Below are positions 3,361-62,019 of a stretch of DNA of 64,000 bases, piece by piece; within the stretch, counting starts at the first letter, position 1, and the number at the start of each line of letters is the position of its first letter. The position numbers and the translations under genes are program-made. The stretch is from contig NZ_FOOW01000001.1 in NCBI RefSeq assembly GCF_900113305.1, forward strand, positions 124,001 to 188,000, written 5' to 3'. A model generated the notes under the pieces. That model was not told the DNA's origin. It ran no database searches and saw only the letters and a program-made list of their open reading frames with translations. Source of the DNA: Prevotella sp. KH2C16 (GTDB taxonomy: Bacteria; Bacteroidota; Bacteroidia; Bacteroidales; Bacteroidaceae).

Positions 3361-3535
3361 AGGAATTCCGGAAATAAAAACCAAAAAGAGGGCAAAGAGA
3401 CATCCTTTTGCCCGGCTATGGATTGTTTCCAACTTTCCGGAAACGCTATTCTCGGCTGATGAAAGCCGCCATTACGAAATGTGGGAAGGGCTAAGAGCAT
3501 TGGTGCAAGCGGTTTAAAGGATTGTCGCAAGCCGC

Positions 3536-3607
3536 TGAAACATGTTGTTTCAGTCATTGAAACACGGTGTTTCAGCCGTTGAAACAATTTGTTTCAACTA
3601 CTGAAAC
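3536..3607. repeat. 22-bp palindromic array, TGAAAC type (array A1)
   Basis: Seven hexamers alternate between TGAAAC and GTTTCA at exact 11-bp steps (3536, 3547, 3558, 3569, 3580, 3591, 3602), separated by 5-base spacers (atgtt, gtcat, acggt, gccgt, aattt, actac). The words are perfectly conserved and most spacers differ. The rest of the 507-bp gap (3274-3780) holds the porter promoter, this array and a hairpin at 3706-3747; no gene is supported in it. A sister copy sits at 29747-29807 with the same gtcat and gccgt spacers. Confidence 0.9.
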
Positions 3608-3705
3608 TATTTCGGAAGGGCACTACTATTTCTCCTGAATATTACGATTGCGATCGAAAGAGGCCACATCCACGGCAAGCGGGAGCAACGGACGGCAGAC
3701 AGCGA

Positions 3706-3780: not shown

Positions 3781-6084
3781 TTACCGCCTCTTGGCTTTCC
3801 CCGCAGCCTTCTGCAGCGTCTTCGAGAATGAGTAAGGCGCACTTCCCGGTGCCGTTCCGCGCAACTTGTCGGGTGTGGCGGAGAGGCTGTAGCGGATGTC
3901 GGCACCCTTTACGAGGTCGGCATGCGTGAGGAAGTTCTTGTCATAGGAAGCCCCGTCGACGGTCATCGAGTGGATGTATCGGTTAGCTTCCGACAAGTTC
4001 TCCGCGTCAAGATTCACCTTTCGGCCGTTCTCGAGATGGAGAGTTACATGGCGGAAATAGGGCGTTCCGAGCACATACTCGTTGCTGCCCGGGCACACGG
4101 GATAGAACCCCATGGCCGAGAACACATACCAAGCCGAGGTCTGGCCGTTGTCTTCGTCGCCGCAATAGCCGTCGGGCATGGCGCTGTAGAGCCTGTCCAT
4201 CACCTCCCGAATCCAGTATTGCGCCTTCCAGGGCTGGCCGCTGTAGTCATAGAGATATATCATGTGCTGGATGGGCTGGTTGCCGTGGGCGTAGTTGCCC
4301 ATGTTCATGATCTGCATCTCGCGTATCTCGTGGATGACCCCGCCATAATAGCTGTCGTCGAAGACTGGGGGCACCACGAAGACGGAGTCCATCATGCGAT
4401 TGAAGGTCTCGTTGCCTCCCATGAGATCGATGAGCCCCTGCGGGTCGTGGAACACGCACCATGTCCAGTGCCAGCTGTTGCCCTCGGTGAAGGCATCGCC
4501 CCACTTGTAGGGACTGAACGGGCTCTGGAACTTGCCGTTCTTCAGGCGGCCCCGCATCATGTTGACGCTCTTGTCGAACACATTCCGATAGTTCAGGGCA
4601 CGCCGGGCGAAGGGTTTTAGCTCTTTGGCCGACTTGCCGAGCGCCTTTCCGAACTCGTAGATGCACCAGTCGTCGTAGGCATACTCGAGGGTGCGGGCCA
4701 CATTCTCCTTGATGTTCACATCATAGGGCACATAGCCGAGCTTGTTGTAATAGTCCACGCCGGCACGCCCCGTGGACATAATCTGCGGATGGGCGGCATT
4801 GGCCCCGTGGACCACGGCCTCCCAGAGAGTCTCTATGTCGGCCTTGCTGCGCACTCCCTTCAGGTAGGCATCGGCCACCACGGAGGCCGAGTTGTTGCCT
4901 ACCATGCAGTCGCGATGTCCCGGCGAGGCCCACTCCGGGAGGAATCCGCTCTCACGGTAAGCGTTGGCAAGCCCGTTCTGCATCTTCTCCCCCATGGAGG
5001 GATAGACCAGGTTCACGAGCGGGAAGAGGCTCCGGAAGGTATCCCAGAAGCCTGTATCGGTGAACATATAGCCCGGAAGCACCTGGCCGTTGTAAGGGCT
5101 GTAGTGCACGGTCTGCCCCCCCGCGGTAACCTCATAGAAGCTGCGCGGGAAGAGCACGGCACGATACAGGCAGCTGTAGAAGGTGCGCAGGTGGTCGATG
5201 TTGTCGTCTTTCACCTCGATGCGACCCAGCGTCTCGTTCCAGCGTTGCCGCCCACGGTCCTTCACCTCGTCGAAAGTCAGGGAGCCCAGCTCCGTCAGGT
5301 TCTGCTCTGCCTGCTCGTAGCTGATGAACGAAGAGGCCACGCGCACATGCACCTGCTCGCCCCTCCGGGTCTTGAATCCTACGATTCCGCCGGCATGCTC
5401 GTTACCCGTTTCCAGACTGCGGCGGTTGATGACGCTGTCGTTGACGGTGGCCGTATAGGTAAACGGCTTGTCGAAGACCAGTACGAAGTAGTTCTTGAAG
5501 TTGTCGGGCACGCCTCCGTGGTTGAAGGTCGTGTACCCGATGATCTTGTTTTCCTCGGGAATGATCTTCACATAGGAGCCGTGATGGTAGGCGTCGAGCA
5601 CGAGATAGGAATGCTCGCTCTCGGGATAGGTAATCCGGAAGATGGCCGCACGGTCGGTGGGAGCCACCTCGGTAACCACATCATAGTCGGCCAGATAGAC
5701 CTTATAATAATAAGGTGTGGCCACTTCTGCCTTGTGCGAGAACCAACTCTCGCGCCTATCCTCGTCGAAGACAGGCGCCCCCGTCTCCGGCATCAGCGAG
5801 AACACGCCGTAGTCGTTGATCCAGGGACTCGGCTGATGGGTCTGCTTGAAACCTCTTATCTTGTTGGCCGAGTAGGTGTATTGCCAGCCGTCGCCGTTCT
5901 TTCCGGTCTGCGGAACCCAGAAGTTCATGCCCCAGGGCATGGCAATGGCGGGATAGGTATTGCCCGTGGACAGGGCAAACTTGGAGTCTGAACCTACCAA
6001 CGTGCTCACATAGTCGACAGGGTCGGTGGCTGCTCCTGCACCCAACGCGAGGAACAGCAGCGATGCTGCTAATATTCTTTTCAT
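3781..6084 (-). CDS. GH92 family alpha-mannosidase (second of two)
   Basis: A 767-residue exported enzyme with a signal peptide (about residues 1-19). GH92 enzymes are calcium-dependent, inverting exo-alpha-mannosidases acting on N-glycan or mannan branches. The family layout is complete: an N-terminal beta-sandwich to about residue 275, then an (alpha/alpha)6 barrel with DTGFWDTFR near 343-351, the acid region TEGNSW with Glu534, and the base region GDEDNGQTSAW near 642-652. The acid is Glu, so this is not the mannosyl-phosphate subtype known to carry Gln there. It is the last gene of an operon, 9 bp after the glutaminase-like gene. Linkage preference cannot be told. Confidence 0.92.
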   Translation of the reverse strand: MKRILAASLLFLALGAGAATDPVDYVSTLVGSDSKFALSTGNTYPAIAMPWGMNFWVPQTGKNGDGWQYTYSANKIRGFKQTHQPSPWINDYGVFSLMPETGAPVFDEDRRESWFSHKAEVATPYYYKVYLADYDVVTEVAPTDRAAIFRITYPESEHSYLVLDAYHHGSYVKIIPEENKIIGYTTFNHGGVPDNFKNYFVLVFDKPFTYTATVNDSVINRRSLETGNEHAGGIVGFKTRRGEQVHVRVASSFISYEQAEQNLTELGSLTFDEVKDRGRQRWNETLGRIEVKDDNIDHLRTFYSCLYRAVLFPRSFYEVTAGGQTVHYSPYNGQVLPGYMFTDTGFWDTFRSLFPLVNLVYPSMGEKMQNGLANAYRESGFLPEWASPGHRDCMVGNNSASVVADAYLKGVRSKADIETLWEAVVHGANAAHPQIMSTGRAGVDYYNKLGYVPYDVNIKENVARTLEYAYDDWCIYEFGKALGKSAKELKPFARRALNYRNVFDKSVNMMRGRLKNGKFQSPFSPYKWGDAFTEGNSWHWTWCVFHDPQGLIDLMGGNETFNRMMDSVFVVPPVFDDSYYGGVIHEIREMQIMNMGNYAHGNQPIQHMIYLYDYSGQPWKAQYWIREVMDRLYSAMPDGYCGDEDNGQTSAWYVFSAMGFYPVCPGSNEYVLGTPYFRHVTLHLENGRKVNLDAENLSEANRYIHSMTVDGASYDKNFLTHADLVKGADIRYSLSATPDKLRGTAPGSAPYSFSKTLQKAAGKAKRR

Positions 6085-13578: not shown

Positions 13579-13663
13579 GTAAAAGGCGGCCTTTTACGCT
13601 CCTTTTAGCCGTTAGAAGCTCTCCTTTTAGCCGTTAAAAGGCGACCTTTTAACGGCCTTTTAC
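13579..13663. repeat. 11-bp-grid array, TAAAAGG type (array B)
   Basis: Eight octamers start exactly every 11 bp from 13579 to 13656: GTAAAAGG, CCTTTTAC, CCTTTTAG, TTAGAAGC, CCTTTTAG, TTAAAAGG, CCTTTTAA, CCTTTTAC, with triplet spacers cgg, gct, ccg, tct, ccg, cga, cgg. An extra CCTTTTAC lies off-register at 13550. The 408-bp gap (13339-13746) otherwise holds only the possible CotH promoter; no gene is seen. The array lies past the 3' end of the phosphoesterase gene. Confidence 0.9.
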
Positions 13664-13746: not shown

Positions 13747-15243
13747 TTAGTCATAAACGAACACTCGTTGTCCCCTTGCCTCGAGCCCGTATCTATCACT
13801 TGCCTGCACTTCTATGCGGTGGACTCCCTTGCGGGCAGAGTCGGGAAGAGGAAGCACCCATAGCTGAGGCGAAGGATTCCTGCGCATCGGATTGACGCGG
13901 TTATACCTCGTGGGGTATGATTTCAGAAGGTTCATTTCGCGTATCCGCGCCACATTAGGGTCGATGAAATCGGCCTTTTTTGCCAATTGCCACTCACCTC
14001 CGTCAATGCGGCATCTCACCTCGGTAGAGTCGCAGCCGCCCCAAACGGTCAGCAGGGCCTGATAAGATTCCATGTCTCTTAAGTCCCGAAGGTGGGTATC
14101 AAGGGTGTCGATACCTGTAATGTGGATATTCATCTGCCTGCTCTCGTCGAGCCCTATGCCCTTACAGCGCAGCTTATAGGAATTGCCCTCAAAGTCAAGA
14201 ACAAAGTAGTTGCGAGGCGTTCCGCCCTGCTGAAGAGCCGAGGGCACGCCCTCCCAGTCTTTTTCTCCTACCCACCAGAACCCGCAGGTGGCACCGGCTC
14301 CGAGCTCATGGACATGAATTCCGGGCTTTCCATAGAAGAAGCGCATCACGCGGTGGAGATGTCCCGTAATGGCAAGCACCTCTTCCCTGCCTTTCAGAAT
14401 GTCGAGAAGAGCATTGCGATTCTTCGTGATGGCCAGAGGAATATGCATGCTCAGGCAGATAAGGTTACCCTTGGGAACCAGGCTGACATCGTTTTTCACA
14501 AACTCCAGTTGCTCCTCCGTCAGCTCTCCGTGATAGCCTCTGGCTCCGTCGCCATAGACATTGTTGAGGACAATGAAGTGCACCTTCCCCTCGTTGAAGG
14601 CATAGACATCGGAGCCGAAAATCGTGTTATAAGTCTTTGTCTGGCCTCGGCGGACACTGTCGGCATCACGGTCGTGATTTCCGATGACCGTCCAGCTTTG
14701 CGACGGCAACAGTTCCATCATTTCCTTCAGTTTAGACTGGAGAGGGAGGTTGTTGTTCACCAGGTCGCCAAGGAAGAGATTTACATCAGCCGAATCCGTA
14801 TCGAGAAGTTCCGGCCACAAGGTTTTTGCAGCATAGTCGAGTTCCTGATAGTTGCCCACCTGCACATCGCCGATAGCATTCAAGCGGAAGTTCCGTTTCA
14901 CGGCCTTGGACTTCAATCCGAAATCACAGCCATCCTTCATTTTCTTTAAACTGACGACGAAACTGCTGTTTACCACCTTGCCGGCCGACATGGTATAGTC
15001 AGAAGGCAAGATGGGGAAGACACCGAATCCGTCGGCAAGGCGGATTCTGTACTTTCCCTTTCCGTTTGTCATCACGATATCCCTGCCGTTTGAGACGGGT
15101 ATATTGGCTATTCCTCTCTCATGACGGTCTCTCTGCCCGTTGCGGTTAGAATCCAGATACACATAGCCTTCGACTGTCTGCTGGGCTTCAGCACCGACTG
15201 TCGAGAGCAAGGAAAACAATATTAAGACAGCAATCCTACTCAT
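13747..15243 (-). CDS. calcineurin-like metallophosphoesterase, exported
   Basis: A 498-residue protein with a signal peptide (about 1-20, ending AEAQ). An N-terminal beta domain (about 22-100, with YLDSNRNGQRD, MetallophosN-like) precedes the dimetal phosphoesterase core with GDVQ (Asp126), GDLV (Asp160), GNHD (189-191) and GHLH near 294; a C-terminal beta domain (about 340-498) resembles MetallophosC. It should hydrolyse a phosphoester in the periplasm or at the surface. It is the last gene of the SusCD operon, overlapping the upstream lipoprotein gene by 8 bp. That placement hints at a phosphate-bearing substrate. It could equally serve phosphate scavenging. Confidence 0.88.
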   Translation of the reverse strand: MSRIAVLILFSLLSTVGAEAQQTVEGYVYLDSNRNGQRDRHERGIANIPVSNGRDIVMTNGKGKYRIRLADGFGVFPILPSDYTMSAGKVVNSSFVVSLKKMKDGCDFGLKSKAVKRNFRLNAIGDVQVGNYQELDYAAKTLWPELLDTDSADVNLFLGDLVNNNLPLQSKLKEMMELLPSQSWTVIGNHDRDADSVRRGQTKTYNTIFGSDVYAFNEGKVHFIVLNNVYGDGARGYHGELTEEQLEFVKNDVSLVPKGNLICLSMHIPLAITKNRNALLDILKGREEVLAITGHLHRVMRFFYGKPGIHVHELGAGATCGFWWVGEKDWEGVPSALQQGGTPRNYFVLDFEGNSYKLRCKGIGLDESRQMNIHITGIDTLDTHLRDLRDMESYQALLTVWGGCDSTEVRCRIDGGEWQLAKKADFIDPNVARIREMNLLKSYPTRYNRVNPMRRNPSPQLWVLPLPDSARKGVHRIEVQASDRYGLEARGQRVFVYD

Positions 15244-23438: not shown

Positions 23439-23864
23439 ATGATTACTTATAACACCGACGGCGTCAGGATGCCGAGGATGAAGAAGCGTGAAATCACGAG
23501 GTGGATCAAGGCCGTAGCCGAGTCTTATGGCCGCAAGGTGGGAGAGATAGGCTATCTGTTTGTCAGCGACGAGAAAATCCTGGAGTGCAACCGCGAGTAT
23601 CTGGGGCATGATTACTATACCGACATCATCACCTTCGACTACGACGAGGGCGACCGGATAAACGGCGACATCTTGATAAGCCTCGACACCGTGAGCACCA
23701 ATGCCGAGAAGTTCGGCAAGCCCTACGACGAGGAACTGCACCGCGTCATCATCCACGGAATACTCCATCTCTGCGGCATCAACGACAAGGGACCGGGCGA
23801 GCGGGAGATTATGGAAGCCAATGAAGACAAGGCACTTGCGCTCCTGCGGGAGATGCAAGGATAG
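23439..23864 (+). CDS. ybeY: endoribonuclease YbeY
   Basis: A 141-residue metalloprotein required for 16S rRNA 3'-end maturation and ribosome quality control. The zinc motif reads HGILHLCGINDKG: His106 and His110 are in place, but the third ligand position, normally His, is Asp116. I believe this is usual in Bacteroidota YbeY and still able to bind zinc, so the enzyme is probably active. Last gene of its operon; array C begins 44 bases after the stop. Confidence 0.94.
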   Translation: MITYNTDGVRMPRMKKREITRWIKAVAESYGRKVGEIGYLFVSDEKILECNREYLGHDYYTDIITFDYDEGDRINGDILISLDTVSTNAEKFGKPYDEELHRVIIHGILHLCGINDKGPGEREIMEANEDKALALLREMQG

Positions 23865-23907: not shown

Positions 23908-23992
23908 GTAAAAGGCCGTTAGAAGCCCGCCTTTTAGCCGTTAGAAGCCAGGCTTTTAGCCGTTAAAAGGCGAGCTTCTAACGGCTAAAAGA
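23908..23992. repeat. 11-bp-grid array, TAAAAGG type (array C)
   Basis: Eight octamers start exactly every 11 bp from 23908 to 23985: GTAAAAGG, TTAGAAGC, CCTTTTAG, TTAGAAGC, GCTTTTAG, TTAAAAGG, GCTTCTAA, CTAAAAGA, with spacers ccg, ccg, ccg, cag, ccg, cga, cgg. It sits in the convergent gap (23865-24214) after ybeY; the rest of that gap holds only the terminator at 24166-24206. Confidence 0.9.
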
Positions 23993-24214: not shown

Positions 24215-24385
24215 TTATTTCCACACTCCCACGGGCTGAGGAATGTCCTCCTCTTCCGAATTCTCTTCCTCCTCTAAGAGAAGGCCGGGCTTTGCGTCGG
24301 CATGGTCATAGCTATGGCCTGCCAGTAAGTTTTCCACTTCAGTCTGTACTGTCTCTACAACCGGCTTTATATACTTTTTCTTCAT
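24215..24385 (-). CDS. 56-residue leader-like small peptide of the MKK-YIKP...LLAG type
   Basis: A short gene translated as 56 residues beginning MKKKYIKPVVETVQTE, then NLLAGHSYDHADAK, an acidic run of Glu (about 38-46) and PQPVGVWK at the end. Small Bacteroidales proteins with a KxYIKP start and an L-L-A-G motif near residue 20 are frequent and usually unnamed; this fits that pattern by eye. It has a clear Shine-Dalgarno (AGGAG, 8 bases before ATG), rare in this phylum. It lies 17 bp after the 1208-residue secreted protein on the same strand and ahead of a good terminator, so it is probably the second gene of that operon. Function unknown. Confidence 0.7.
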   Translation of the reverse strand: MKKKYIKPVVETVQTEVENLLAGHSYDHADAKPGLLLEEEENSEEEDIPQPVGVWK

Positions 24386-24402: not shown

Positions 24403-27400
24403 TTACCTGACGATGATTTTCACTCCGTTAATAACATATAATCCTGCTGGCACCGAGAGCGTCCGTGTCTCGTCGGCCTTCAACGAGAGCCTGTCCACGC
24501 ATACGCCACTCACTGCGGTTACCATTACTTTTGTGTCGACAGCTGCCGAAAGGGTGATATTACCATTACCCGCACTTATCATCAAGTCTGCTTTTCGGGT
24601 CATATCCGTAATACCGGTAGCCTCGCCGTTCTCACCATATTCCACATAGAAGCCCCTCATTGCCTTGGCTCCGGAAGAAGTCGTGTACTTATAATAGCCA
24701 CGGAATGGATATATGTACACATTCGGATGGTTATCGTCCAGCTCCGTCGAGTTCACGAACATATTATTCGAGAAATAGAAGAGCCGATCCGTCTTTGGCA
24801 GTTTCTTGCCCGAATAAGAGCCATAGTTCTGGAAAGCGTACGAATTGCCGCCTACCATTCCTGCTGCTTGTTCGCCCGAGAAAGTATAGTCTGCGCCCAT
24901 CAAAGCCGGCGTAGCAATCACATCAGAACCATACTGGGTGGCAACGAAAGAGATATTTGCATCCTCCGGAGCCGTCTCTATTCCTACCATGTAAGGCACA
25001 TTTGCCTCTGTATGACTTTCCGTAACAGGAGAGAAATATCCTGTGAACTCCGTCGTCGTCCCATTGTCCTTCATAGAAAGGGCATCCTCGGCCGTCATCT
25101 TGTTCACCGTAAATGAGCAAAGTCCGTCCCTGTTGGTGTGCACTCCACCCTGTAACTCAAGCGTAAATGGCAACATGATCGTTGCACTGGCCACCTTGCC
25201 GTTCTTCGGAATGGTAATCTCACGGGTATAAGTTGCATAGTTCTCTGCCGGAACCGTAATCTTATACGGCGCATAGAACGGCTGCCGGTCGGTAATCACG
25301 ATGTTCTTGCAGGCACGATAGTCGCCGCTGAGGGTCTTCTGGATATAGTTGTCCTCGTTGAAACTTGACCGGACGGGGAAATAGATCAGGCAGTTAGGAT
25401 TGAGCAGGGCCTTCATCTCGTCCATCTCGGCCTTTTCCGGAATATGGACCGAATAGAGATTGGTGTAGTCGAGATAAAGCACTTGCATGCCCGTAGGCCT
25501 TGCGTCGGGATTGCCCTCCGGGGCTTCTGCCGTCAGGGCTTCTATCAACGCCTGGCGCATCATCGGCACGGTGAGGTAAGCGCTCTCGCTCGGAATCTCC
25601 TCGCCCGTAACGGCATCCAAGGCCTTGAACACGCCGCCGTACATCGGCAGTTCGGCATCGGCGCCGTCCTTGTTGTAGCAAGTGGTGTCGTAGAGCTTGG
25701 TCAGCACGCACTTTGCCACATAGTCCTTGGTCTCCAGCTTCAGGTCCATCAGGTAGTAGGCGTAGTAGCGATGCTCCCACGCCGTGGTGGGCGCGATGTT
25801 CCAGCGGGTCTCGTCGGCCGTGAAGAGGTAGCAGGGCTTCTCCTCGTCTACAGCGAGCACGATATCAGACGAGAAACTACCGCCCTGCTCCAAATAGAGG
25901 GCCTCGGAATAAGGATACTCCTCCAATGTCGTAGTGCCGCCGGAGGTGTTGTTCGGGTCGAGCTCATCGATGTTGCTGTACTTGAACGGCTTGTCGCCGC
26001 ACATGTTGCTATGAATCTTGTCGGCAGCCGGTTCGTTACCGGTCGTGAGATATTGATGTCCGTCGTATTGATTATAATAAGGTGACTTCACGAAGAAGTA
26101 GCGGGCATGATGCGGGTCTTCATTACCATAGGTTTCATCACCATACTTGCTCATCAGGTTCTCGAAGGTGAAGCGGCACTTCTGCTCGCCACCGCCGAAG
26201 AAGTCCTGCGGCACATAGAAGATGAACTTTCCGCCTGATACCTGGAAGTCGTTGCTCGTGAACTGCTGCATCAAGGTAGGACCGTTCTCTGCCAATGAGT
26301 GGCACACAATATCAATGGAGTTGACAAAAGGATTGAGGGCTTCGAGGGTAAGCTCGAAGGTGATGAGGGCTTTAGCCCCCTCCGCCAGTCCTTCTACCGA
26401 GAACTTGATGGCATCGTTGTTCAGACCGGTCAATACTACTTCGCCATCGTCACCTGCCCCGACGCTTACCGTCTGGCTCACATTGTCCTTGTCGGTCTTG
26501 TATATCTTCAAGGTGTAGGGCGAAGGCGTGAAGGCCGGGTTCTGCACAGAGCCTGTTCCCGTGGCCGCCGTCCAGCTGGCAGCATTGTTGCTTGAGTTGG
26601 TTATCTGGGCATGGGTATTATTACTATGAACTACAAAACCATTACCATACTTGATGTTACCTCCGCTGATGGTAAAGGTCGTAGCCTGATTAGGATCGGT
26701 CGTACCATAGATATAATACCGAGTATTGTATCCCGTTCCACTCTGAGATACATACAAATAGTTATCCCCGCTATAAATCTTACCGGTACTGGCCGCGTTG
26801 CCGTTCAGCTTCCACAGCACGGGGCTGGTGCCCCAGGTACCGTCTGTCTTCAGGTAGTAAGTCGTATTATTATAAGACCTATGTGTGATGTAGAACCCTC
26901 CCAAATCACCGTTATAGGTTACCGTGCCGGCTTCAGCCGCCGTACCATAGTGATAATGAATCTTCGCCCCCGTGATGCGGTAGCCCAACGGGATGTCGGT
27001 GCCGTCTTGCGAGGTGGTGGATGTAGGCGTCTCTATATAATAGGTGTTGTTACCCAAGGCATAATAAAGGTCGTCGCCGTTTTTCAGAGCCTGGATGGAA
27101 CCGCTGCCGGGGGCAGCCGGAAGTTTCTTGTCAGCCGTCACGGCATCCTCCTGATAGAGCCAGTTACTGGCCGTAAGTTCCTTCACATCGCGGAAGTCAT
27201 AACTATAGAAGGTTACGCCGTTCTTTGTGTGAGGCTCTATTTTACCCAAGTCGAGCTTGCTGGTCGGGAAGGCAGATCCAACCATGTTCACGCCCTCGCT
27301 GATGATGTTGGCAGGCTTGCCAGGAGTAACATCAGCCTGGAAAGCACCCTCGGCCGTAAAGTAAAGCTCGCACGACTTCAGCGTAACGCCATAGAAACCT

Positions 27401-28558: not shown

Positions 28559-29692
28559 ATGAAGGGAAGCATTTTTCTTGAATATTTAATGGTCGTGGCC
28601 TTAGTCCTGTATCTCTTTATGGGAGTAAACCTCATTCTGGCAAAGACTCCCAAGCGCGACCTCTACGCCCCCTACAGAAATTCAAAGCTACTCGTAGGCA
28701 TCGCTTTTCTCCTGATAGGGCTGATGCTGAGTGGCCTATGGCTGGCCCGGGCGGCCAGATGGGCAGAGAACGCAATCCTCGCCATTGACCTCGTGAGCCA
28801 CTATGCCGTCTACATCCTGCTCACCGTTGCCTCCATCAACCTTTTCAAACACGATTATCTGAACAGGGCAAGCGTCAGAAGGCTGGCTATGGGGTTCGCC
28901 GCCATCACCGCCATCTCCGCACTCTCTCTCCTCATTACGCCGAACAGTCAATGGACGGTGCAGGCAGCCGGAACGGCATGGCTTTTCGGCTACATGATAT
29001 GGTTTATCGCCTATTTCCACAAAATCATCCGGCAAGTCAGGGCCAAGATGGCCAACTATCATAACCGGGCACTCACGCACTACATACGATGGGTCATCCG
29101 CAGCGTGATGCTGTGGGTGATCTTCGGCCTCGCCAGCACTTTCGTCCCCTTTGCCCCGACATGGGTTCAGATTGCATTCCGCATCTATGGAATAGCCGTC
29201 AACTGTTACATCTATGCTTCCTTCCGGAATTATCTGATGCATTACGAAGCCGTGGAACTGGACATCCGCGAAATGGAGAGGCGGCACTACAACAAGCATA
29301 GACCGCCGAAATCACAGGCGGAGGAGACCAGAGACCAGATGATAGAACAGGGCATACAGGTGTGGCTGCGGATGAACGGCTTCACCCAGACGGGGGTTAC
29401 CGTCGAGCAGCTGGCCCTGCAGATAGGCACCAACCGAAGCTATCTCTCCTATTACATCAATCGCACCTACGGCACGAAGTTCAGCGACTGGCTGAACCAG
29501 CTGCGCCTGAAGCATGCCAAGAACATGCTCCGCGCCGACAAGAGCCTCAGTATGGAAGAGGTGGCCCTGCGTTCCGGATTCTCGTCAGGCTCGTATTTCA
29601 CCAAGATATTCGTCAAGAGCACGGGCAAACCGCCCATGAAATGGAGAGAACAGAATACCAGACCTCACACCGGAGGCGACAAACAAGAATAG
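28559..29692 (+). CDS. membrane-anchored AraC-family transcriptional regulator
   Basis: A 377-residue protein. The N-terminal 225 residues contain about six or seven hydrophobic helices (for example 8-28, 43-62, 75-95, 108-126, 138-152, 178-196). After a charged linker (about 235-260), residues 262-365 are an AraC-type double helix-turn-helix: LALQIGTNRSYLSYYINRTYG, then MEEVALRSGFSSGSYFTKIFVKSTGKPPMKWRE. Such proteins probably sense a signal at the inner membrane and bind DNA directly. It is divergent from the 1208-residue protein gene, a natural candidate target. It ends at a hairpin containing its stop codon. Confidence 0.85.
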   Translation: MKGSIFLEYLMVVALVLYLFMGVNLILAKTPKRDLYAPYRNSKLLVGIAFLLIGLMLSGLWLARAARWAENAILAIDLVSHYAVYILLTVASINLFKHDYLNRASVRRLAMGFAAITAISALSLLITPNSQWTVQAAGTAWLFGYMIWFIAYFHKIIRQVRAKMANYHNRALTHYIRWVIRSVMLWVIFGLASTFVPFAPTWVQIAFRIYGIAVNCYIYASFRNYLMHYEAVELDIREMERRHYNKHRPPKSQAEETRDQMIEQGIQVWLRMNGFTQTGVTVEQLALQIGTNRSYLSYYINRTYGTKFSDWLNQLRLKHAKNMLRADKSLSMEEVALRSGFSSGSYFTKIFVKSTGKPPMKWREQNTRPHTGGDKQE

Positions 29693-29712: not shown

Positions 29713-29746
29713 CCTATCAGTATCCTTCTGGATTTGTGCCAGCCGC

Positions 29747-29807
29747 TGAACCGCCGTGTTTCAGTCATTGAAACACTGTGTTTCTGCCGTTGAAACAAAC
29801 TGTTTCT
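29747..29807. repeat. 22-bp palindromic array, TGAAAC type (array A2)
   Basis: Hexamers at exact 11-bp steps from 29747: TGAACC, GTTTCA, TGAAAC, GTTTCT, TGAAAC, GTTTCT, with 5-base spacers gccgt, gtcat, actgt, gccgt, aaact. It shares the flank AGCCGCTGAA and the spacers gtcat and gccgt with array A1, so both derive from one element, but three hexamers carry substitutions. It lies in the convergent gap between the AraC-family gene and the S41 protease. Confidence 0.88.
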
Positions 29808-29843
29808 GCCGCCGACACACGCAAGGCCGGCCGACAGCCAGCC

Positions 29844-31442
29844 TTACCGTATTAGCTGCACGGCCTTCTGAACGATGCGATTCTCCTCATTCATGATAGA
29901 GAAATACTCCGACATATCCCATAGGTCGCGGGCTATCAGAGCCTTCAACTGCAGCTTCAGATAAGGCAGCGTGCGCTGCAGTTCGGCGTCGTCCTTGGGC
30001 TTGACACCCTGCTTCTCACCCTCACGCAGCACCTCGTCGACGAGGCTCCGGGGAACTTCAAACCGAGCCTTAAAATCTGCGAAGGCCGGATTTTGCGCCT
30101 TCAGCACACGGCGGTGCCTGTCCACATACTTGAGGTTGGCGTTGAGCACGATGCCCTTGGCCACCAACTGACGGTGCAGGGGGGTGAACTGCGCGGTGTC
30201 GAGCGGCACGAAGAAGTCGGGCATGATGCCGCCTCCGCCATACACGGCACGATGGCGGCGCAGGGTGTAATACTTCAGGCTGTCGGCGAAGTGTATGCTG
30301 TCGGCGCTGTAAAGCTCGCCGTGCTTATAGCGCTGATCCAGCTCAAGGGCATAGTCCTTCATGTCGCCCTTCACATAAGGCTTCTGTATGCAGCGGCCGG
30401 AAGGCGTGAAATAATGGGCTATGGTGAGGCGCATCATCGAGCCGTCCTTGAACTCGATGGGGCGCTGCACGAGTCCCTTGCCGAACGAGCGGCGGCCTAC
30501 CACCTGCCCGCGATCCTGGTCCTGGATGGCTCCCGTTACTATTTCGGCGGCCGAGGCGCTAAACTCATTGATCAAGACCATCACCTTTCCCTCGAGCAGA
30601 TGACCGTTGCCCTGAGCCCGGGACTCCTGCTTCGGCACGGAGCGTCCCTGCGTATAGACAATCAGGTCGCCCTTGTGGAGGAATTCGTTGGCCACCTGTA
30701 CGGCAGCCTGGAGATAGCCCCCGCCGTTCTCCTGAAGGTCGAGGATGAGGTCGCGCATGCCCTCCCGCTGCAAAGCCTTCACCGCCTCCATGAACTCGTC
30801 GTAGGTGGTAAGGCCGAAGCTGCCGATGCGGATATATCCCACTTGCGGCCGAATCATGTAGTAGCCGTCGACGGTCTTCACGGGAATCTTGTCGCGCACC
30901 ACCTGGAAAGTAAGCCTCTCGCCGATGCCGCGGCGCACCACGCCCAGCCTTACCCGCGTTCCCTTGGGGCCGCGGAGCCGCCTCATGATTTCCTCCTTGC
31001 TCATCTTGACGCCCGCAATCAGCGTGTCGTCGACCGTAACGATGCGGTCGCCGGCCATGATGCCCACCTTCTCGGAGGGACCTTTCAAGACGGGCTGGAT
31101 GACGAGCAGCGTATCCTCCACGAGGTTGAACTGAACGCCGATGCCGTCGAAGGAGCCGTTGAGCGACTCCGTCATCTCCTTGGTCTCCTTGGCGGTGGAG
31201 TAAGACGAGTGAGGGTCGAGCTTCTCGAGCATTCCCCGGATGGCATCCTCCACGAGCTTGTCCTCGTCAACGGAGTCGACATAGAGGTTCTTCACGGCCA
31301 TCTCCGCTATCTGCAGCTTGTGGATGGGGCTGTTGGAATTGAAGTCCAGGCGCAACTGGGCGTTCAAGGGTAAAAGGGTGAAAAGGCAGAAGGGCAGAAA
31401 GAATACGGCTCTTTTCACGCCCCGACTATTTGTTTTGTTCAT
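29844..31442 (-). CDS. S41 family C-terminal processing peptidase
   Basis: A 532-residue periplasmic serine protease of the CtpA/Prc family. Signal peptide about 1-28 (ending PLNAQ); N-terminal helical part with LVEDAIRGMLEKLDPHSSY; PDZ domain about 95-185; protease core with LILDLQENGGGYL, the catalytic Ser in NEFSASAAE (about 295-297) and Lys322 in RRSFGKGLVQ. A longer start exists in frame, but the ATG at 31440-31442 places the signal peptide correctly and leaves a 32-bp gap to parE. Substrates are not evident from sequence. Confidence 0.92.
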   Translation of the reverse strand: MNKTNSRGVKRAVFFLPFCLFTLLPLNAQLRLDFNSNSPIHKLQIAEMAVKNLYVDSVDEDKLVEDAIRGMLEKLDPHSSYSTAKETKEMTESLNGSFDGIGVQFNLVEDTLLVIQPVLKGPSEKVGIMAGDRIVTVDDTLIAGVKMSKEEIMRRLRGPKGTRVRLGVVRRGIGERLTFQVVRDKIPVKTVDGYYMIRPQVGYIRIGSFGLTTYDEFMEAVKALQREGMRDLILDLQENGGGYLQAAVQVANEFLHKGDLIVYTQGRSVPKQESRAQGNGHLLEGKVMVLINEFSASAAEIVTGAIQDQDRGQVVGRRSFGKGLVQRPIEFKDGSMMRLTIAHYFTPSGRCIQKPYVKGDMKDYALELDQRYKHGELYSADSIHFADSLKYYTLRRHRAVYGGGGIMPDFFVPLDTAQFTPLHRQLVAKGIVLNANLKYVDRHRRVLKAQNPAFADFKARFEVPRSLVDEVLREGEKQGVKPKDDAELQRTLPYLKLQLKALIARDLWDMSEYFSIMNEENRIVQKAVQLIR

Positions 31443-31474
31443 TCTCTTTCGTATTATTGCACCATAAATTCCTG

Positions 31475-33469
31475 TCATTCCAGAGGCCTGCTGTCTTCCT
31501 CGGGGATGTCTTCCTCGATGACGAGGTTGTCGATGATGAAGTTCTGACGCTCCATCGTGTTCTTGCCCATGTAGTATTCCAGCAGCTTTGCCACCTGGTC
31601 GGTCTTGTGCAGCGTTACCTGCTCGAGCCGCATCTCGGGGCCGATGAAATGGGCAAATTCCTCCGGGCTGATTTCTCCCAGCCCCTTGAATCGGGTGATT
31701 TCAGGGTCGGGAGCAAGGTCGCGGATGGCTTCCTGCCGCTCTTCCTCGCTGTAGCAATAGCGAGTAATGAAGTCGGTCTTCTTCTCATTCTTGCCCAAAC
31801 GCGCGTCGGCCTCCGTTATCACGCGCTTATTCTTAATCTTCGTGCGGCGGTTGCGAACACGGAAGAGCGGTGTCTGGAGCACATAGACATGCCCCTTCTT
31901 GATGAGTTCCGGGAAGAACTGAAGGAAGAAAGTAATGGTAAGCAGGCGGATGTGCATGCCGTCGACATCGGCATCAGTAGCCACGATTACCTTATTATAA
32001 CGCAGGTTGTCGAGGCCGTCCTCTATGTCGAGCGCCGCTTGCAGGAGGTTGAACTCCTCGTTCTCGTAGACCACCTTCTTGGTCAGGCCAAAGCTGTTGA
32101 GGGGCTTTCCGCGGAGCGAGAACACGGCCTGCGTGTTCACATCACGGCTCTTGGTGATGCTTCCGCTCGCCGAGTCGCCCTCAGTAATGAAGATGGAGGA
32201 CTCCTCCTTGCGGTCGTTCTTCGAGTCGCAGTAGTGGATACGGCAGTCGCGCAGCTTCCGGTTGTGCAGGTTGGCCTTCTTGGCACGCTCGCGGGCAAGC
32301 TTCGTAACGCCCGCCATCGCCTTGCGCTCGTGCTCGCTCTCCTTGATTTTGTTCTCTATGATCTCGGCTATGTCGCTGTTGATATGCAGGTAGTTGTCCA
32401 CCTCCTTCTTGATGAAGTCGCCCACATACTTGTTGATGGAGTCGCCGCCGGGGGCCATCTGGGTGGAGCCCAGCTTGATCTTGGTCTGGCTTTCGAAGAC
32501 GGGCTCCTCCACATTCACGGCAATGGCCGCCACGATTCCGTTCCGGATATCGGTGTATTCATAGTTCTTATTAAAGAATTCCTTGATTGTCCGGGCTATA
32601 TGTTCCTTGAAAGCACTCTGATGGGTGCCGCCCTGCGTGGTGTGCTGACCGTTCACGAAGGAGTGGTATTCTTCCCCGTACTGATTGGTATGGGTAAAGG
32701 CTATCTCGATGTCCTCGCCCTTCATGTGGATAATCGGATAGAGCCCGTCTACCGTCATGTTGTCGGTGAGCAGGTCTTCCAGCCCGTTGCGGCTGCGTAT
32801 GCGACGGCCGTTATACATGATGGTGAGGCCTGAGTTCAGGTAAGTATAGTTGCGGAGCATGGTCTCCACGATGTCATCGTGGAACTCATAGTTCTTGAAC
32901 AGCGTGCCGTCCGGCTCAAAGAAGATGTAGGTGCCATTCTCGTCGGCTGACTTGGCGGTGGTGTCTCCTTTCTTGATACCCCGCTCAAAGGCAAGCTCGC
33001 GAACCTTTCCGTCACGGAAAGACTTCACCTCGAAGCGGGAGCTCAGGGCGTTTACGGCCTTCACGCCGACGCCATTCAGCCCGACGCTCTTCTTGAAAGC
33101 CTTGGAGTCATACTTGCCTCCGGTGTTCAACACGCTCACGGCCTCGACGAGCTTTCCCTGCGGAATGCCGCGCCCATAGTCGCGGACGCTGACACGGAGG
33201 TTGTCGATGATGTCGACTTCGATGCGGTCGCCGGAATTCATCTTGAACTCGTCGATGGAGTTGTCGATGACCTCCTTGAGAAGCACATAGATGCCGTCTT
33301 CGGGCAGACTGCCGTCGCCGAGGCGACCGATGTACATACCCGGACGGGTGCGCACATGCTCCATATCCGAGAGGTGGCGGATGTTGTCGTCGGTATAGGC
33401 AACCACTTCCTCCGGCTTCTGCCCCCCTACAGGGTTCTTGACTTCTTGACTATCTAAAACTTCTGGCAT
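31475..33469 (-). CDS. parE: DNA topoisomerase IV subunit B (type IIA topoisomerase ATPase subunit)
   Basis: A 664-residue GyrB/ParE-type subunit. GHKL ATPase motifs include [10 protein letters not shown] (about 66-75), DYGRGIPQG and [13 protein letters not shown]; the transducer follows; the TOPRIM domain has [11 protein letters not shown] and [15 protein letters not shown], and the C-terminus has [16 protein letters not shown]. It decatenates or relaxes DNA with a ParC-type partner, which is not in this window. GyrB is normally distinct and elsewhere; assignment as ParE rests on the TDADVDG TOPRIM context and typical Bacteroidota order, so the GyrB alternative is less likely but not excluded. 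The S41 protease lies 32 bp downstream and may be cotranscribed. Confidence 0.88.
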
Positions 33470-36974: not shown

Positions 36975-37059
36975 GTAAAAGGCGGCCTTTTGCAACTCTT
37001 CTAACGGCCTTTTAGCTTGTAAAAGACGGCTAAAAGCAGAGTAAAAAGCCGCTTCCTGT
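36975..37059. repeat. 11-bp-grid array, TAAAAGG type (array D)
   Basis: Octamers every 11 bp from 36975 to 37052: GTAAAAGG, CCTTTTGC, TCTTCTAA, CCTTTTAG, GTAAAAGA, CTAAAAGC, GTAAAAAG, CTTCCTGT, with spacers cgg, aac, cgg, ctt, cgg, aga, ccg. It is more diverged than arrays B and C but keeps exact register. The remainder of the 532-bp gap (36769-37300) has the upstream promoter box and otherwise nothing recognised. Confidence 0.85.
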
Positions 37060-37300: not shown

Positions 37301-38179
37301 CTATCGCATGACATCCTGCCAATAACAGAACCGGAAGCTTTTGCGGGTCTGCTTGTCGCCTTTCGTGAGGGTAAGGGCAGGCTTGTCCTCATTGGAATCG
37401 TCGCTGAAGGTGATGGTTTCCTCGCCGTCTGTAAACTCGAAGAGCCTGGTCCGGAGAGTGCCTTCCACATCGAGCTTTCCCTTAAGCACCTTGACGGGAA
37501 GCGCATTGGCGGCACTTCCCTTCGGATAAACGCAAAGGCGAAACTCGTCATCGCCATCGGCATAGTGCGCGTCTACACGGTAAACGAGCCCCTCGCCACG
37601 CGTAATGAGGCAGGTGTAAGGAGTCCAATCACCGCCCTGCAGCGACGGATGGAGCAACGAGAGGTCTCTGCGCACGGCTTCATAAAGGGCTTTCTCGCCT
37701 TCGGCCGACAAGCGGTTTACACTGATGAGTCCGCCCTCATCTGCCCAGAGGGAACCACTATCGAACATCCAGCCTCGCCAGCCCATCTCTTTCCAGGCAG
37801 AGAGAGGACTCTGGCTCACCGTGCGGATAAAGGGGGAATCGAACAGAAGATGGAAATCACGGCGCATAGCGCGCTGGTCGGTAATGTCCTTCAGCGGATA
37901 AGGCATGCGCAGAGGATAGTGCACATGCCTGGAAAGAAGGGCGGCATCGGCCGTGGCAATGGCCTGGTGAACCAAGGCCACCTCGCGCGGAACTCCTGCC
38001 TCGACGGTGTCGCTGACGGCTTCGGGCACCGGGGCTGACGCCACACGCCGTGCCACTTGTCTGCCATGCGCGGATTCTGAGACGGCGGAAACCGACCTGC
38101 CAGGCCCCTTTGGGGCACATGCCGACAAGAAAAGAGTCAGCAAGAGACCCAGAAACAGATTCAAACCGTGTATCTTCAC
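37301..38179 (-). CDS. lipoprotein of unknown function
   Basis: A 292-residue predicted lipoprotein with lipobox Cys21 (LFLSAC). The start is GTG at 38177-38179; a stop codon 18 bases upstream rules out a much longer form. After a Ser/Ala/Val-rich linker (to about 65) comes a region with LSRHVHYPLRMPYPLKDITDQRAMRRDF (about 80-108), which resembles the NTF2-like or DUF-type domains of periplasmic lipoproteins, and then a beta-rich C-terminal half with YRVDAHYADGDDEFRLCVYPKG. I do not recognise a family. It stands alone with gaps on both sides. Confidence 0.65.
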   Translation of the reverse strand: MKIHGLNLFLGLLLTLFLSACAPKGPGRSVSAVSESAHGRQVARRVASAPVPEAVSDTVEAGVPREVALVHQAIATADAALLSRHVHYPLRMPYPLKDITDQRAMRRDFHLLFDSPFIRTVSQSPLSAWKEMGWRGWMFDSGSLWADEGGLISVNRLSAEGEKALYEAVRRDLSLLHPSLQGGDWTPYTCLITRGEGLVYRVDAHYADGDDEFRLCVYPKGSAANALPVKVLKGKLDVEGTLRTRLFEFTDGEETITFSDDSNEDKPALTLTKGDKQTRKSFRFCYWQDVMR

Positions 38180-47451: not shown

Positions 47452-48399
47452 ATGAGTAACATTAAAGACAGCGTTCTCAACGACAACGAGAACCAGAAAC
47501 AGAACAAGCCGCTGGAATCCAGCAAGGTAGAACAAGCCCTTAAGCTATACGACTTCAATATCAGCGACAACGAGGTAAAGGCCGCAGTACAGAAAATCAT
47601 CAAAGAGAAGGTCCCTGCCAATGACACTCTTGATGTGAAGAAGTTCCTTCTGGGCAGCGTGGAGCTCACCTCGCTGAACACGACCGATACCGAGGAAAAG
47701 ATCCTCGGCATGGTGGAGAAGGTGAACCGGTATGCGCATGAGTTCGCAGAGCTCCCCCATGTGGCAGCCGTGGTCTGCTATCCCAACTTCACCAAGCTCG
47801 TCAGCCAGAGCCTGGAGGTAGACGGAGTGGAAATCACCAATGTCAGCGGCAGCTTCCCCTCGTCGCAGACCTTCATGGAGGTCAAGGTCGCAGAGACTGC
47901 CCTTTCCTTGAGGGACGGCGCTACGGAGATTGACATCGTCCTCCCCGTGGGCAAGTTCTTCTCCGAAGACTATGAGGGCATTGCCGACGACATAGCGGAA
48001 CTGAAGCAGGTGTGCGGCGACCACACCATGAAAGTCATCCTCGAGACCGGCGATCTGGGCTCTTGTGCCAACATCAAGAAGGCAGCCATCCTCTCCATGT
48101 ATTCCGGCGCAGACTATGTGAAGACCTCCACAGGCAAGGAGAAGATAAGCGCGACGCCCGAGGCAGTCTATGTAATGTGCCAGGCCATCAAGGAATACTA
48201 CGACCAGACAGGCATCGTCATCGGCCTGAAACCTGCCGGAGGCATCAATACGGTGCGGGATGCCGTAACCTATTACACCATCGTCCAGGAGGTTTTGGGC
48301 GAGAAATGGCTCACCAACAAGCTGTTCCGCCTGGGCACATCCCGCCTCACCAACATGCTCATGAGCGAGGTTCTGGGCAAGGAAATCAAGTTCTTCTAA
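47452..48399 (+). CDS. deoC: deoxyribose-phosphate aldolase
   Basis: A 315-residue aldolase splitting 2-deoxyribose-5-phosphate into glyceraldehyde-3-phosphate and acetaldehyde in deoxynucleoside breakdown. The Schiff-base Lys lies in YVKTSTGKEK, the second Lys in GLKPAGGINT, and EIDIVLPVG is typical. About 60 residues longer at the N-terminus than the enterobacterial enzyme, as is common in Bacteroidota. A strong terminator follows. Confidence 0.95.
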   Translation: MSNIKDSVLNDNENQKQNKPLESSKVEQALKLYDFNISDNEVKAAVQKIIKEKVPANDTLDVKKFLLGSVELTSLNTTDTEEKILGMVEKVNRYAHEFAELPHVAAVVCYPNFTKLVSQSLEVDGVEITNVSGSFPSSQTFMEVKVAETALSLRDGATEIDIVLPVGKFFSEDYEGIADDIAELKQVCGDHTMKVILETGDLGSCANIKKAAILSMYSGADYVKTSTGKEKISATPEAVYVMCQAIKEYYDQTGIVIGLKPAGGINTVRDAVTYYTIVQEVLGEKWLTNKLFRLGTSRLTNMLMSEVLGKEIKFF

Positions 48400-48415: not shown

Positions 48416-48452
48416 AGAAGTGGGAACAACGCATCTGTTGTTCCCACTTCTT
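48416..48452 (+). terminator. strong bidirectional terminator after deoC
   Basis: AGAAGTGGGAACAAC at 48416-48430 pairs perfectly with its complement at 48437-48451 (15 bp) around the loop GCATCT; TTGTTATCTT follows. The best intrinsic hairpin in the window. Confidence 0.8.
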
Positions 48453-48467
48453 GTTATCTTCTGCCCG

Positions 48468-48530
48468 ACAAAATCGGCGATTTTGTGCGACGATTTCGGC
48501 GATTTTGTCCTTCAAAATCGCCGAGATTAT
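48468..48530. repeat. 11-bp-grid array, ACAAAATC type (array F)
   Basis: Octamers every 11 bp from 48468: ACAAAATC, GATTTTGT, ACGATTTC, GATTTTGT, TCAAAATC, GAGATTAT with spacers ggc, gcg, ggc, cct, gcc. It lies 16 bases past the deoC terminator, in the convergent gap before the polyprenyl synthase gene; the rest of the gap (to 48604) is blank. Confidence 0.85.
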
Positions 48531-48604
48531 CATTCTGTCAGCCACCTTTTAAATTCACCCCTGTGCCTTTCTGTTCTCCATGGTACGGCACTCCCCGCCC
48601 CGCG

Positions 48605-53395: not shown

Positions 53396-53423
53396 AGGCC
53401 GCCGAAAGAAAAGAAAAATCGGT

Positions 53424-53497
53424 TATTTTATACCGTAAAACAAGTGATTTTATAAGGTAAAATAAGTTATTTTGCCTTGTAAAATGAGTGATTTTAC
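53424..53497. repeat. 11-bp-grid array, GTAAAAT type (array E)
   Basis: Octamers every 11 bp from 53424: TATTTTAT, GTAAAACA, GATTTTAT, GTAAAATA, TATTTTGC, GTAAAATG, GATTTTAC, with spacers acc, agt, aag, agt, ctt, agt. Alternation of orientation is perfect. The spacers are less GC-rich than in the other arrays. Confidence 0.88.
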
Positions 53498-53546
53498 TTT
53501 TGCGTTGGTTACTTTTTACGCATACAAAGGCCATCTATTAGAATAC

Positions 53547-60884: not shown

Positions 60885-60947
60885 GCTAAATGCCGTCTTC
60901 TATGCGACAAATTCGGCGATTTTGTCAGACGGTAAGCGGCCTTTAGC
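60885..60947 (-). repeat. mixed 11-bp-grid array and terminator-like hairpin (array G)
   Basis: Octamers every 11 bp from 60885: GCTAAATG, TCTTCTAT, ACAAATTC, GATTTTGT, ACGGTAAG, CCTTTAGC with spacers ccg, gcg, ggc, cag, cgg. The outer words belong to the TAAAAGG type and the central pair to the ACAAAATC type. The outer words pair (AGCTAAA at 60884-60890 with TTTAGCT at 60942-60948), and on the minus strand the structure runs into TTTT, so it probably ends the C1 peptidase transcript. Confidence 0.8.
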
Positions 60948-60984
60948 TCTTCAAGGAGGCTTGTCTGCCCTGCCAACCGGCGGC

Positions 60985-62019
60985 TCATCGCAGCACTTCT
61001 CGGCTCATGAAGGCAGCAATGGTCTTCTTCCTCACATAGTTGAAAGACAGGTACATAAAGCCACGATACGGGTTGTCGGTGCCCCAGGAGTTCTTCGCGA
61101 TGAAGTATTTATTGCCCTCCCTGTCGTGGGCGATGCCCACCAAGGCCATCGTGTGGTCGTCGGTGGTCTGGATATGGTCGAATGCCGACTGGCGCTCCTC
61201 CTGCGTGCACGGTGTTCTCTCGTTGTCCAGTCGGGCAATTCCCTTGGCAAACGAGAATCCCTCTTCCGATGTATCACCCTCCCAGCAGACGGCATGGCCG
61301 CTGCGCAAGGCTTTCTCCATATAGCCCATCAGGTCGTCGATGGGAAGGTTGAGATAGGTGTCATACATCTTGTTGTCGGGCGTCTCCAGTACAAAAGACT
61401 CTCCGAAAGGATGATGCAAGAAGCTCGTCAATGCCACATACTCACCTTCACGGCACACGCTATGCCCGAATTCGAGCGGGCTATACTGTGCTCCGAGCAT
61501 GAAGACCATGTGCGGCTGATAGTCTATTTCCTGGTCGAGCATATCACCCATGCCGCGGCGGAAATCGCCGAAATCATGAGTTGTCGCCGACAACTGCCGC
61601 AACTTGCGGCACAGGACATTGTAGTTTACGCCTTTCCGTGCATGATAAGAGTCATACGGCATGGCTCCGTAGAGACTAAGCAGACGGAGCGCCGTCGAGC
61701 CCATGCCCCTCAAGTCTATCCCCTGAGACCCGTGCGAGAGATAGCTCTGACAAGCCTGATACTCCAGATACTTACGGGCCAGAAAGTCGATAGACAAGTT
61801 CACGGAGTCGCCCAGACCTATATGTTCACTCTCGATGGTGGCCAGCATGGCGTATATCCAGCACAGCGAACTGCGCCCCTGATTCTTCACGGGCGTGGTC
61901 TTGAGTCTCACCTCATCCACGAAATCAGCTATCCCGCCCGGCATCTTGCCCGACCTCGAGCATCCGGCGAGCAGCAATGTCGCCAGCAACAATGATAGAT
62001 AAATCTGCGATTTCTTCAT
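60985..62019 (-). CDS. C1-family (papain-like) cysteine peptidase lipoprotein
   Basis: A 344-residue lipoprotein with lipobox Cys20 (LLLAGC). Papain-fold catalytic residues are all visible: Gln47 and Cys53 in VKNQGRSSLCWIYA, His289 in DHTMALVGIA, Asn310 in AKNSWG. It resembles the C1B bleomycin hydrolase-like peptidases of Bacteroidota more than papain itself and lacks an obvious propeptide. It probably degrades peptides in the periplasm or on the outer membrane. ATG 62017-62019 is used because the earlier in-frame start is TTG. Confidence 0.88.
   Translation of the reverse strand: MKKSQIYLSLLLATLLLAGCSRSGKMPGGIADFVDEVRLKTTPVKNQGRSSLCWIYAMLATIESEHIGLGDSVNLSIDFLARKYLEYQACQSYLSHGSQGIDLRGMGSTALRLLSLYGAMPYDSYHARKGVNYNVLCRKLRQLSATTHDFGDFRRGMGDMLDQEIDYQPHMVFMLGAQYSPLEFGHSVCREGEYVALTSFLHHPFGESFVLETPDNKMYDTYLNLPIDDLMGYMEKALRSGHAVCWEGDTSEEGFSFAKGIARLDNERTPCTQEERQSAFDHIQTTDDHTMALVGIAHDREGNKYFIAKNSWGTDNPYRGFMYLSFNYVRKKTIAAFMSREVLR

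Follow-up and report, generated by a model that had tools for sequence, protein, structure and literature searches.

The window analyzed here, a stretch of 64,000 nucleotides of the Prevotella sp. KH2C16 genome, carries between its genes a series of arrays in which short words recur on an 11-bp grid. Eight such arrays with four different words had been reported in the initial annotation, and when these stretches were compared with an 11-bp ruler, the grid and the four words were found at the positions that follow. A W1 array (TGAAAC/GTTTCA words, RYNRY spacers, seven half-sites) lies at 3533..3609, downstream of the minus-strand GH92 gene 3781-6084, and another with eight grid positions occupies 29733..29820, in the convergent gap between an AraC-type gene (28559-29692, plus strand) and an S41 peptidase gene (29844-31478, minus strand). 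Words of the W2 type (TAAAAG/CTTTTA) are set on the 11-bp grid at 13579..13663, with the orientation ><<><><<, downstream of the minus-strand phosphoesterase gene 13747-15243; at 23908..23992, with the orientation >><><><>, between a plus-strand gene ending at 23864 and a minus-strand gene with its 3′ end at 24403; and at 36975..37059, with the orientation ><<<>>>, downstream of a minus-strand gene with its 3′ end at 37301. The 56-residue ORF at 24215-24385, beside the second of these W2 arrays, is doubtful as a real gene. A 66-bp W3 array (ACAAAATCG S CGATTTTGT units) at 48466..48531 and a W4 array (TAAAATAA/TTATTTTA, eight grid positions) at 53411..53498 both lie in convergent gaps, the former directly after a strong terminator-like hairpin (~48420-48450, arms GGGAACAAC/GTTGTTCCC) that immediately follows the stop codon at 48399 and is likely an ordinary terminator. 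The eighth stretch, at 60885..60947, holds mixed, degenerate words; adjoining it (window ~60919-60987), genome G398 of the relative Prevotella sp. oral taxon 376 has ~15 kb of extra DNA. Four of the eight stretches are in convergent and four in tandem gaps. A search of the window for Rfam families returned none at gathering thresholds.

The significance of each array was assessed against 1000 dinucleotide shuffles using two scores, the number of dyad pairs and the self-identity at lag 22. The arrays starting at 3536, 23908, 29747, 48468 and 53424 (starts as initially annotated) yielded p<0.001 on both scores, and the array at 13579 yielded p = 0.002 for dyad pairs and p<0.001 for lag 22. The array at 36975 stood out at lag 22 (p = 0.02; p = 0.27 for dyad pairs), and the stretch at 60885-60947, whose signal was not significant on either score (p = 0.39 and p = 0.12, respectively), is at best a degenerate mix of words. 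Seven of the eight claimed arrays, then, exceed their shuffled versions by one or both scores; the claim of an eighth was not upheld.

The same architecture recurs throughout the genome, of which 1.24 Mb out of 3.22 Mb (39%) was sampled. Ninety-seven arrays were found in total, including six of the eight in the window, those at 36975 and 60885 falling below the scan threshold. An autocorrelation at 11 and 22 bp had been proposed as a check, and lag 22 did stand out: when 464 kb were scanned for clusters in which 34 or more of 48 bases are identical at lag k, 21 clusters were found at lag 22 and three at lag 44, while the remaining lags between 5 and 60 had zero or one apiece. An order-3 Markov copy contained no clusters. 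At a slightly lower threshold, the 1.24 Mb yielded 86 clusters at lag 22, 14 at lag 44 and one to three at the others. The symmetry of the arrays detected in this manner was analyzed by column permutation, revealing 88 of 95 lag-22 arrays to be dihedral (p<0.01) versus none of six at other lags (k = 20, 21, 23, 24, 26 and 30 pooled). The lag-22 scan preselects the 22-bp period ahead of this symmetry test; a second, word-free test does not, and consisted of searching for four successive base-centered dyads of six pairs each, with at least 20 of the 24 pairs formed and at least four in each dyad. On the 1.24 Mb, it returned 62 arrays with dyads 11 bp apart, none at spacings of 8, 9, 10, 12, 13, 14, 15 or 16 bp and no bond-centered ones; at a looser threshold, 74 arrays were found at spacing 11 against 15 at the eight other spacings combined. 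The signal was absent from dinucleotide shuffles and the register was kept in a related genome (see below), the two points on which the initial annotation had said that its claim could fall.

The usual unit is 22 bp long and contains two base-centered dyads 11 bp apart, such that a 6-bp word is followed by a 5-bp spacer, the reverse word and another 5-bp spacer. Grouping of the 97 arrays by a dihedral circular model produced about six word families, namely W3 (ACAAAATCG-S-CGATTTTGT, 39 arrays), W5 (TTACAM-RYNRY-KTGTAA, 29), W1 (GTTTCA-RYNRY-TGAAAC, 12), W2 (CTTTTA/TAAAAG, nine, plus two in a residual cluster), W4 (TAAAATAA/TTATTTTA, three) and W6 (TTACCA/TGGTAA, three); four families thus have 9-39 members each. 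Half-sites number six in 54 of the 97 arrays and eight in 23, and 34 of the 39 W3 arrays have six (66 bp). One of the two spacer types conforms to RYNRY in 95% of cases in W5 and W6 taken together (n = 101) and in all cases in W1 (n = 33) and W2 (n = 19). The words had been described as mostly alternating in orientation with a full period of 22 bp. This holds for W1 and for W5/W6: of the pairs of words 11 bp apart, all 52 in W1 and 204 of 207 in W5/W6 were oppositely oriented. The W2 family, to which the window arrays at 13579, 23908 and 36975 belong, departs from alternation while sharing the 11-bp grid: only 73 of 116 exact pairs were opposite and 43 had the same orientation, and in 29 W2 chains (22 from this genome and seven from the relative, one mismatch allowed) 67 adjacent words had the same and 99 alternating orientation. 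In W2, the 11-bp phase is therefore kept and the orientation is nearly free.

With genes called by our own script, 36 of the 97 arrays were found in convergent, 50 in tandem and ten in divergent gaps, and one in coding sequence. Relative to the gaps of at least 90 bp available, occupancy was highest between convergent genes (36/72), followed by tandem (50/267) and divergent (10/102) gaps. Arrays follow stop codons at a median distance of 61 bp, and 40 of the 50 arrays in tandem gaps are closer to the upstream stop than to the downstream start. At a looser threshold, six of the 17 arrays of G398 were in convergent and 11 in tandem gaps. The polarity of W3 in tandem gaps was opposite to that of the genes in 16 cases and the same in seven (p = 0.09).

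Phased A-tracts giving intrinsically curved DNA had been put forward to account for the grid. Curvature was calculated with approximate wedge values for the dinucleotides, using column-permuted arrays as controls; on these values, W1, W4 and W3 arrays were curved (mean z of 3.4, 2.6 and 2.0), W5 arrays less so (1.5) and W2 and W6 arrays hardly at all (0.6 and 0.55), and out of six arrays from relatives compared to shuffles, five fell within ~1.2 sd and one (L140) lay ~3 sd above. A-tracts are missing from the W5 and W6 words (TTACAM, TTACCA) and from several words of relatives. The proposal thus applies to part of the families, and phased A-tracts are not the common denominator of arrays whose curvature is so uneven; given the weak values of W2, W6 and five of the six relatives' arrays, curvature was rejected as the unifying property. 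A broader version of this explanation, in which the arrays are bendable or curved DNA read by shape only, as strong sites of wrapping by gyrase or as the tips of supercoiled loops, and the words are irrelevant, appears unlikely. The 11/22-bp period fits the ~11-bp periodicity of bacterial DNA that is commonly tied to negative supercoiling (PMC4132750), three families exceed their permuted controls in curvature, and convergent gaps are favored. Most arrays, however, stay with a single well-defined word out of a small set, something that shape by itself would not require, and the near-strict alternation of W1 and W5/W6 is unneeded for bending; furthermore, core periodic motifs of genomes are argued not to be bending motifs (PMC7537859). 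Bacterial ~11-bp periodicity, which in E. coli is reported to be concentrated in intergenic regions (PMC516772), is a statistical dinucleotide bias, whereas the Prevotella arrays are discrete and near-exact.

It had also been suggested that the alternating words could form chains of small hairpins in RNA, and the location of arrays after stop codons is in keeping with an RNA-level element, in which transcribed 3′ arrays would fold, either as chains of 6-bp hairpins or as one long hairpin, and terminate transcription or protect mRNA ends. Passages of PMC3733652 argue that REP repeats act as RNA elsewhere. Folding energies were indeed below those of shuffles (mean z of -2.7 to -5.6 depending on the family), but palindromic sequence alone suffices to account for them. 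No excess complementarity was found between adjacent half-sites of W5, W1 and W2, the W3 rows having been set aside for combining two registers, and the arms of RYNRY spacers avoid pairing: they were fully complementary in 43 of 101 W5/W6 spacers against 55% expected, in three of 33 W1 spacers against 25% and in three of 19 W2 spacers against 50% (binomial p of 0.016, 0.042 and 0.004, respectively, with spacers treated as independent). Selection on the transcript should make G-U mismatches outnumber A-C ones on the sense strand; the two were equal in tandem gaps, at 61:57 in spacers and 35:33 in words, so that RNA-hairpin selection is not supported, and the nearly free orientation of W2 words does not favor it either. 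Around the centers of the 58 arrays outside W3, complementarity was at background beyond ~44 bp, ruling out a global long hairpin centered on the array. With adjacent complementarity, spacer-arm pairing and the sense-strand mismatches all unsupportive, the proposed hairpin chains were abandoned, and an RNA-level element in general strikes us as distinctly unlikely.

What speaks for some link of the arrays to termination is that gene ends with an array have terminator-like hairpins more often than those lacking one (0.61 versus 0.47 in convergent and 0.38 versus 0.20 in tandem gaps, with 0.08 in divergent gaps). Among 122 array-facing ends, a hairpin followed by a T-run was located between stop codon and array in 27, within the array in 31, beyond it in 24 and straddling its border in three, and was missing in 53, these classes being overlapping. 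The hairpins that separate stop codons from arrays indicate that a good part of the arrays lies beyond the likely transcript end. We provisionally read the arrays as functioning at the DNA level.

Among named relatives, Prevotella sp. oral taxon 376 (locus L090, genome G398) is the closest. Its S41 peptidase is 94% identical, and of the 37 syntenic blocks 1 kb or more in length, 34 are 80-90% identical at the DNA level. On contig C15, 16 of 37 arrays could be aligned using anchors on both sides; the 21 others were excluded on account of long insertions in the gap (two) or missing anchors (19). Fourteen of the 16 aligned arrays had no internal indel, one was longer by a 22-bp unit in the relative and one had collapsed, and none of the 16 gaps presented a clean empty site. 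In the window, the W1 array at 3533..3609 differs from its counterpart at 15 of 77 bases without internal indel; the W2 array at 13579..13663 has an identical orientation string at the matching place, with 66 bp aligned without indel; and the W2 array at 36975..37059 keeps its register. The W1 array at 29733..29820 is shorter in the relative, leaving a 44-bp gap in the alignment, and the W3 array at 48466..48531 shows no internal indel, the relative having 22 extra bp alongside that appear W3-like by eye. Changes of array length between the two genomes amount to 22 or 44 bp, and the flanks of four aligned arrays hold gaps of 22, 22, 43 and 44 bp. In 12 arrays, leaving out two word-swapped and two indel-bearing ones, words had a substitution frequency of 0.118 (456 sites), spacer arms of 0.178 (304 sites), dyad centers of 0.224 (76) and aligned flanks of 0.336 (2310). 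The two word-swapped arrays changed their word in place. That at 53411..53498 has a different word in the relative over the same 88 bp, changed in all half-sites without any indel (36 of 88 bases), and the array at C15 216513 has TTACCA words opposite TTACAA-type words (24 of 66 bases). At C15 322535-322600, a 66-bp W3 core appeared by eye to be inverted relative to the gap in Prevotella sp. oral taxon 376, its flanks being in place. At C15 242701-242777, inside an ORF according to our gene caller, three near-perfect 22-bp direct units carry an A/G difference from G398 that is repeated in every unit.

Half-sites were slightly less alike within arrays than when dealt at random within their family (0.708 versus 0.722 in W5, 0.722 versus 0.736 in W1, 0.786 versus 0.803 in W3 and 0.580 versus 0.596 in W2). 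Simple slippage predicts the opposite and is thus argued against, and the word looks to be held genome-wide rather than by local duplication, which suggests a trans-acting agent, whether a recognizer or genome-wide gene conversion. Two observations qualify this picture. Half-sites of W3 arrays were more alike in the same slot (0.847) than in different slots (0.795), and W3 copies therefore look related by descent. In addition, the arrays at window 53411 and C15 242701 have changed in all units together, so that local homogenization does occur, and these two coordinated differences count against a purely trans explanation. That the arrays are non-functional or selfish dispersed repeats, i.e. 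MITE-like palindromes spread by some enzyme and made uniform by gene conversion, finds support in these differences, in the inverted W3 core and in the 40 copies within 1.24 Mb of W3, an ordered 66-bp element with slot-specific variants, but is the least probable of the explanations weighed here, in that only one of 16 aligned orthologous gaps lacked a full array (with 21 further arrays not alignable), indels were few and substitution low next to faster-changing flanks, copying leaves a shared grid with species-specific words unexplained, and no match to the Y1 (RAYT-type) transposase family PF01797 was found in the whole genome at E≤0.001, a control search finding it in five of 14 genomes.

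The arrays extend to other Prevotella. Under the strict word-free test, 400 kb of G398 yielded 15 arrays at spacing 11 and none at other spacings, and a set comprising eight same-genus genomes (100 kb each) and 79 loci of Prevotellaceae yielded 22 at spacing 11 against two at all others, the 22 being spread over 16 of the 87 sources. At the looser threshold, the ratio in this set decreased to 50 at spacing 11 against 30 elsewhere, which counts against our preferred explanation (see below). The words differ from species to species, examples being GTCCAA/TTGGAC, TTCCC/GGGAA, GTCCCA/TGGGAC, CAACGG/CCGTTG, CAAATT/AATTTG and CAGTTG/TAACTG. The earlier suggestion that spacing is conserved over sequence was borne out in that the 22-bp grid accommodates different words within one genome, across two orthologous gaps and in other species. 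Dihedral lag-22 arrays (p<0.01) accounted for 23 of 28 in G398, 21 of 38 in the eight genomes, 19 of 49 in the 79 loci and six of nine in seven genomes of other genera (400 kb in total), against 0/0, 2/10, 4/45 and 0/3, respectively, at the pooled lags of 20, 21, 23, 24, 26 and 30. In Prevotella sp. KH2C16, G398, the eight genomes and the 79 loci combined, 144 arrays were base-centered and seven bond-centered; the six from other genera, which come from three of the seven genomes, were all bond-centered, suggesting that period and palindromy, not parity or word, are kept across genera of the family. The strict base-centered test found no arrays in the seven other genera and its bond-centered version was near background (two at spacing 11, one at 9 and one at 10), and the case for grid arrays in these genera is thin. 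Applied to 100 kb of E. coli DNA, the lag scan returned a single cluster, at lag 18, and the word-free test no arrays. Using crude ORF calls, the 22 strict arrays of the more distant relatives were assigned to convergent (five), tandem (seven) and divergent (four) gaps, to ORFs (five) and to a sequence edge (one), and gap occupancy was 5/116, 6/348 and 4/163 for convergent, tandem and divergent gaps, respectively; a gene-end bias in these relatives is weak at best. The architecture is real and constrained, is widespread in Prevotella and perhaps reaches beyond the genus.

Helically phased half-sites along which a protein polymerizes are found in iteron and centromere arrays (parC, tubC) and in phased operators. 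Iteron and centromere arrays number few per replicon and use one word; here, 97 arrays with several words are present in 39% of a genome. In line with the initial annotation, which knew of no named element with this architecture, no description of such 22-bp grid arrays was recognized in the open-access literature searched, although two known repeats are reminiscent of them. REP sequences are described in passages of PMC3733652 as short palindromes, often in opposite orientation, present in many copies downstream of coding regions and mostly between convergent and same-direction genes, and the Prevotella arrays share with REP/BIME elements the location between such genes, near 3′ ends. The REP/BIME unit is a palindrome of 20-40 bp with variable spacing; unlike it, the Prevotella arrays have a fixed 11-bp dyad spacing within a 22-bp dihedral repeat, use about six words per genome and have other words in other species. 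They also lack the G-U bias that would correspond to the frequent G-T pairing cited for REP stems in the same source, and identity with RAYT/REP systems was rejected since the genome has no Y1 transposase match. PINSR, a 188-bp intergenic repeat of Prevotella intermedia judged non-coding, is present in 177 and 184 copies in two strains, which share about three quarters of the positions (PMC4755523). It resembles the arrays in being intergenic, in many copies and in a Prevotella, and could be related; its published description is nonetheless that of a single 188-bp sequence restricted to one clade, and a 22-bp period goes unmentioned in the section on it.

Our preferred explanation, to which we give a probability of roughly 0.4, is that the arrays are phased arrays of protein sites that work at the DNA level where genes end, with a role resembling that of BIMEs. 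They would constitute ordered rows of putative binding sites on duplex DNA, located for the most part directly after genes. Two facing 6-bp half-sites would make up each 22-bp unit, with successive proteins sitting on one face of an underwound helix (11 bp per turn). The spacing may be dictated by contacts between neighboring proteins, which could bridge, bend or wrap 66-90 bp of DNA. The observations cover the grid, its symmetry, the word families, their retention in a close relative, the placement of the arrays in this genome and the equal mismatch counts on the sense strand; what we infer is that proteins bind, that each word family has its own protein or paralogue, and that the role of the arrays would be topological. 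Their job at the ends of transcription units would likely be to hold or bend DNA between converging genes, or to fix a site for gyrase or a nucleoid protein; similar roles have been proposed for BIME/REP arrays. Against this explanation, unrelated proteins would hardly be expected to read their various words at one and the same 22-bp period, and the terminator-like score is higher, not lower, at array-bearing ends. Two words are combined in a few arrays, among them C18 70348 and C19 27832, which also counts against it, as do the gene-end bias in the more distant relatives, weak at best, the near-background outcome of the word-free test in the seven other genera and the two arrays changed in all units together.

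More speculatively, and on balance doubtful, Prevotella and its relatives within the family may maintain, across the whole chromosome, a grid element made of 22-bp dihedral arrays at gene ends. Its geometry would be conserved and its word rewritten, even in place and simultaneously in every unit, with a fast-changing family of DNA-binding proteins polymerizing on one face of underwound DNA and setting topological boundaries between transcription units. If so, many transcription-unit ends would be marked by an element defined by its geometry, of a kind missed by ordinary motif and repeat searches, and a gene-end element would be added to those of one of the major bacterial groups of gut and mouth. 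The arrays would further offer a natural system in which helical phase, supercoiling and DNA-binding specificity evolve jointly, the orthologous word swaps being ready-made experiments.

Periods other than 22 bp were also noted among the 79 Prevotellaceae loci, where lags 14 and 21 were over-represented, hinting at a 7-bp base period; two of the 28 lag-21 arrays were palindromic. Finally, tandem arrays of 22-bp or 11-bp units that are not palindromic were observed at L261-L265 (G450, G423) and L226-L230 (G122), the stretch in G423 beginning with a perfect 11-bp tandem and G122 having purine-rich 22-bp arrays.
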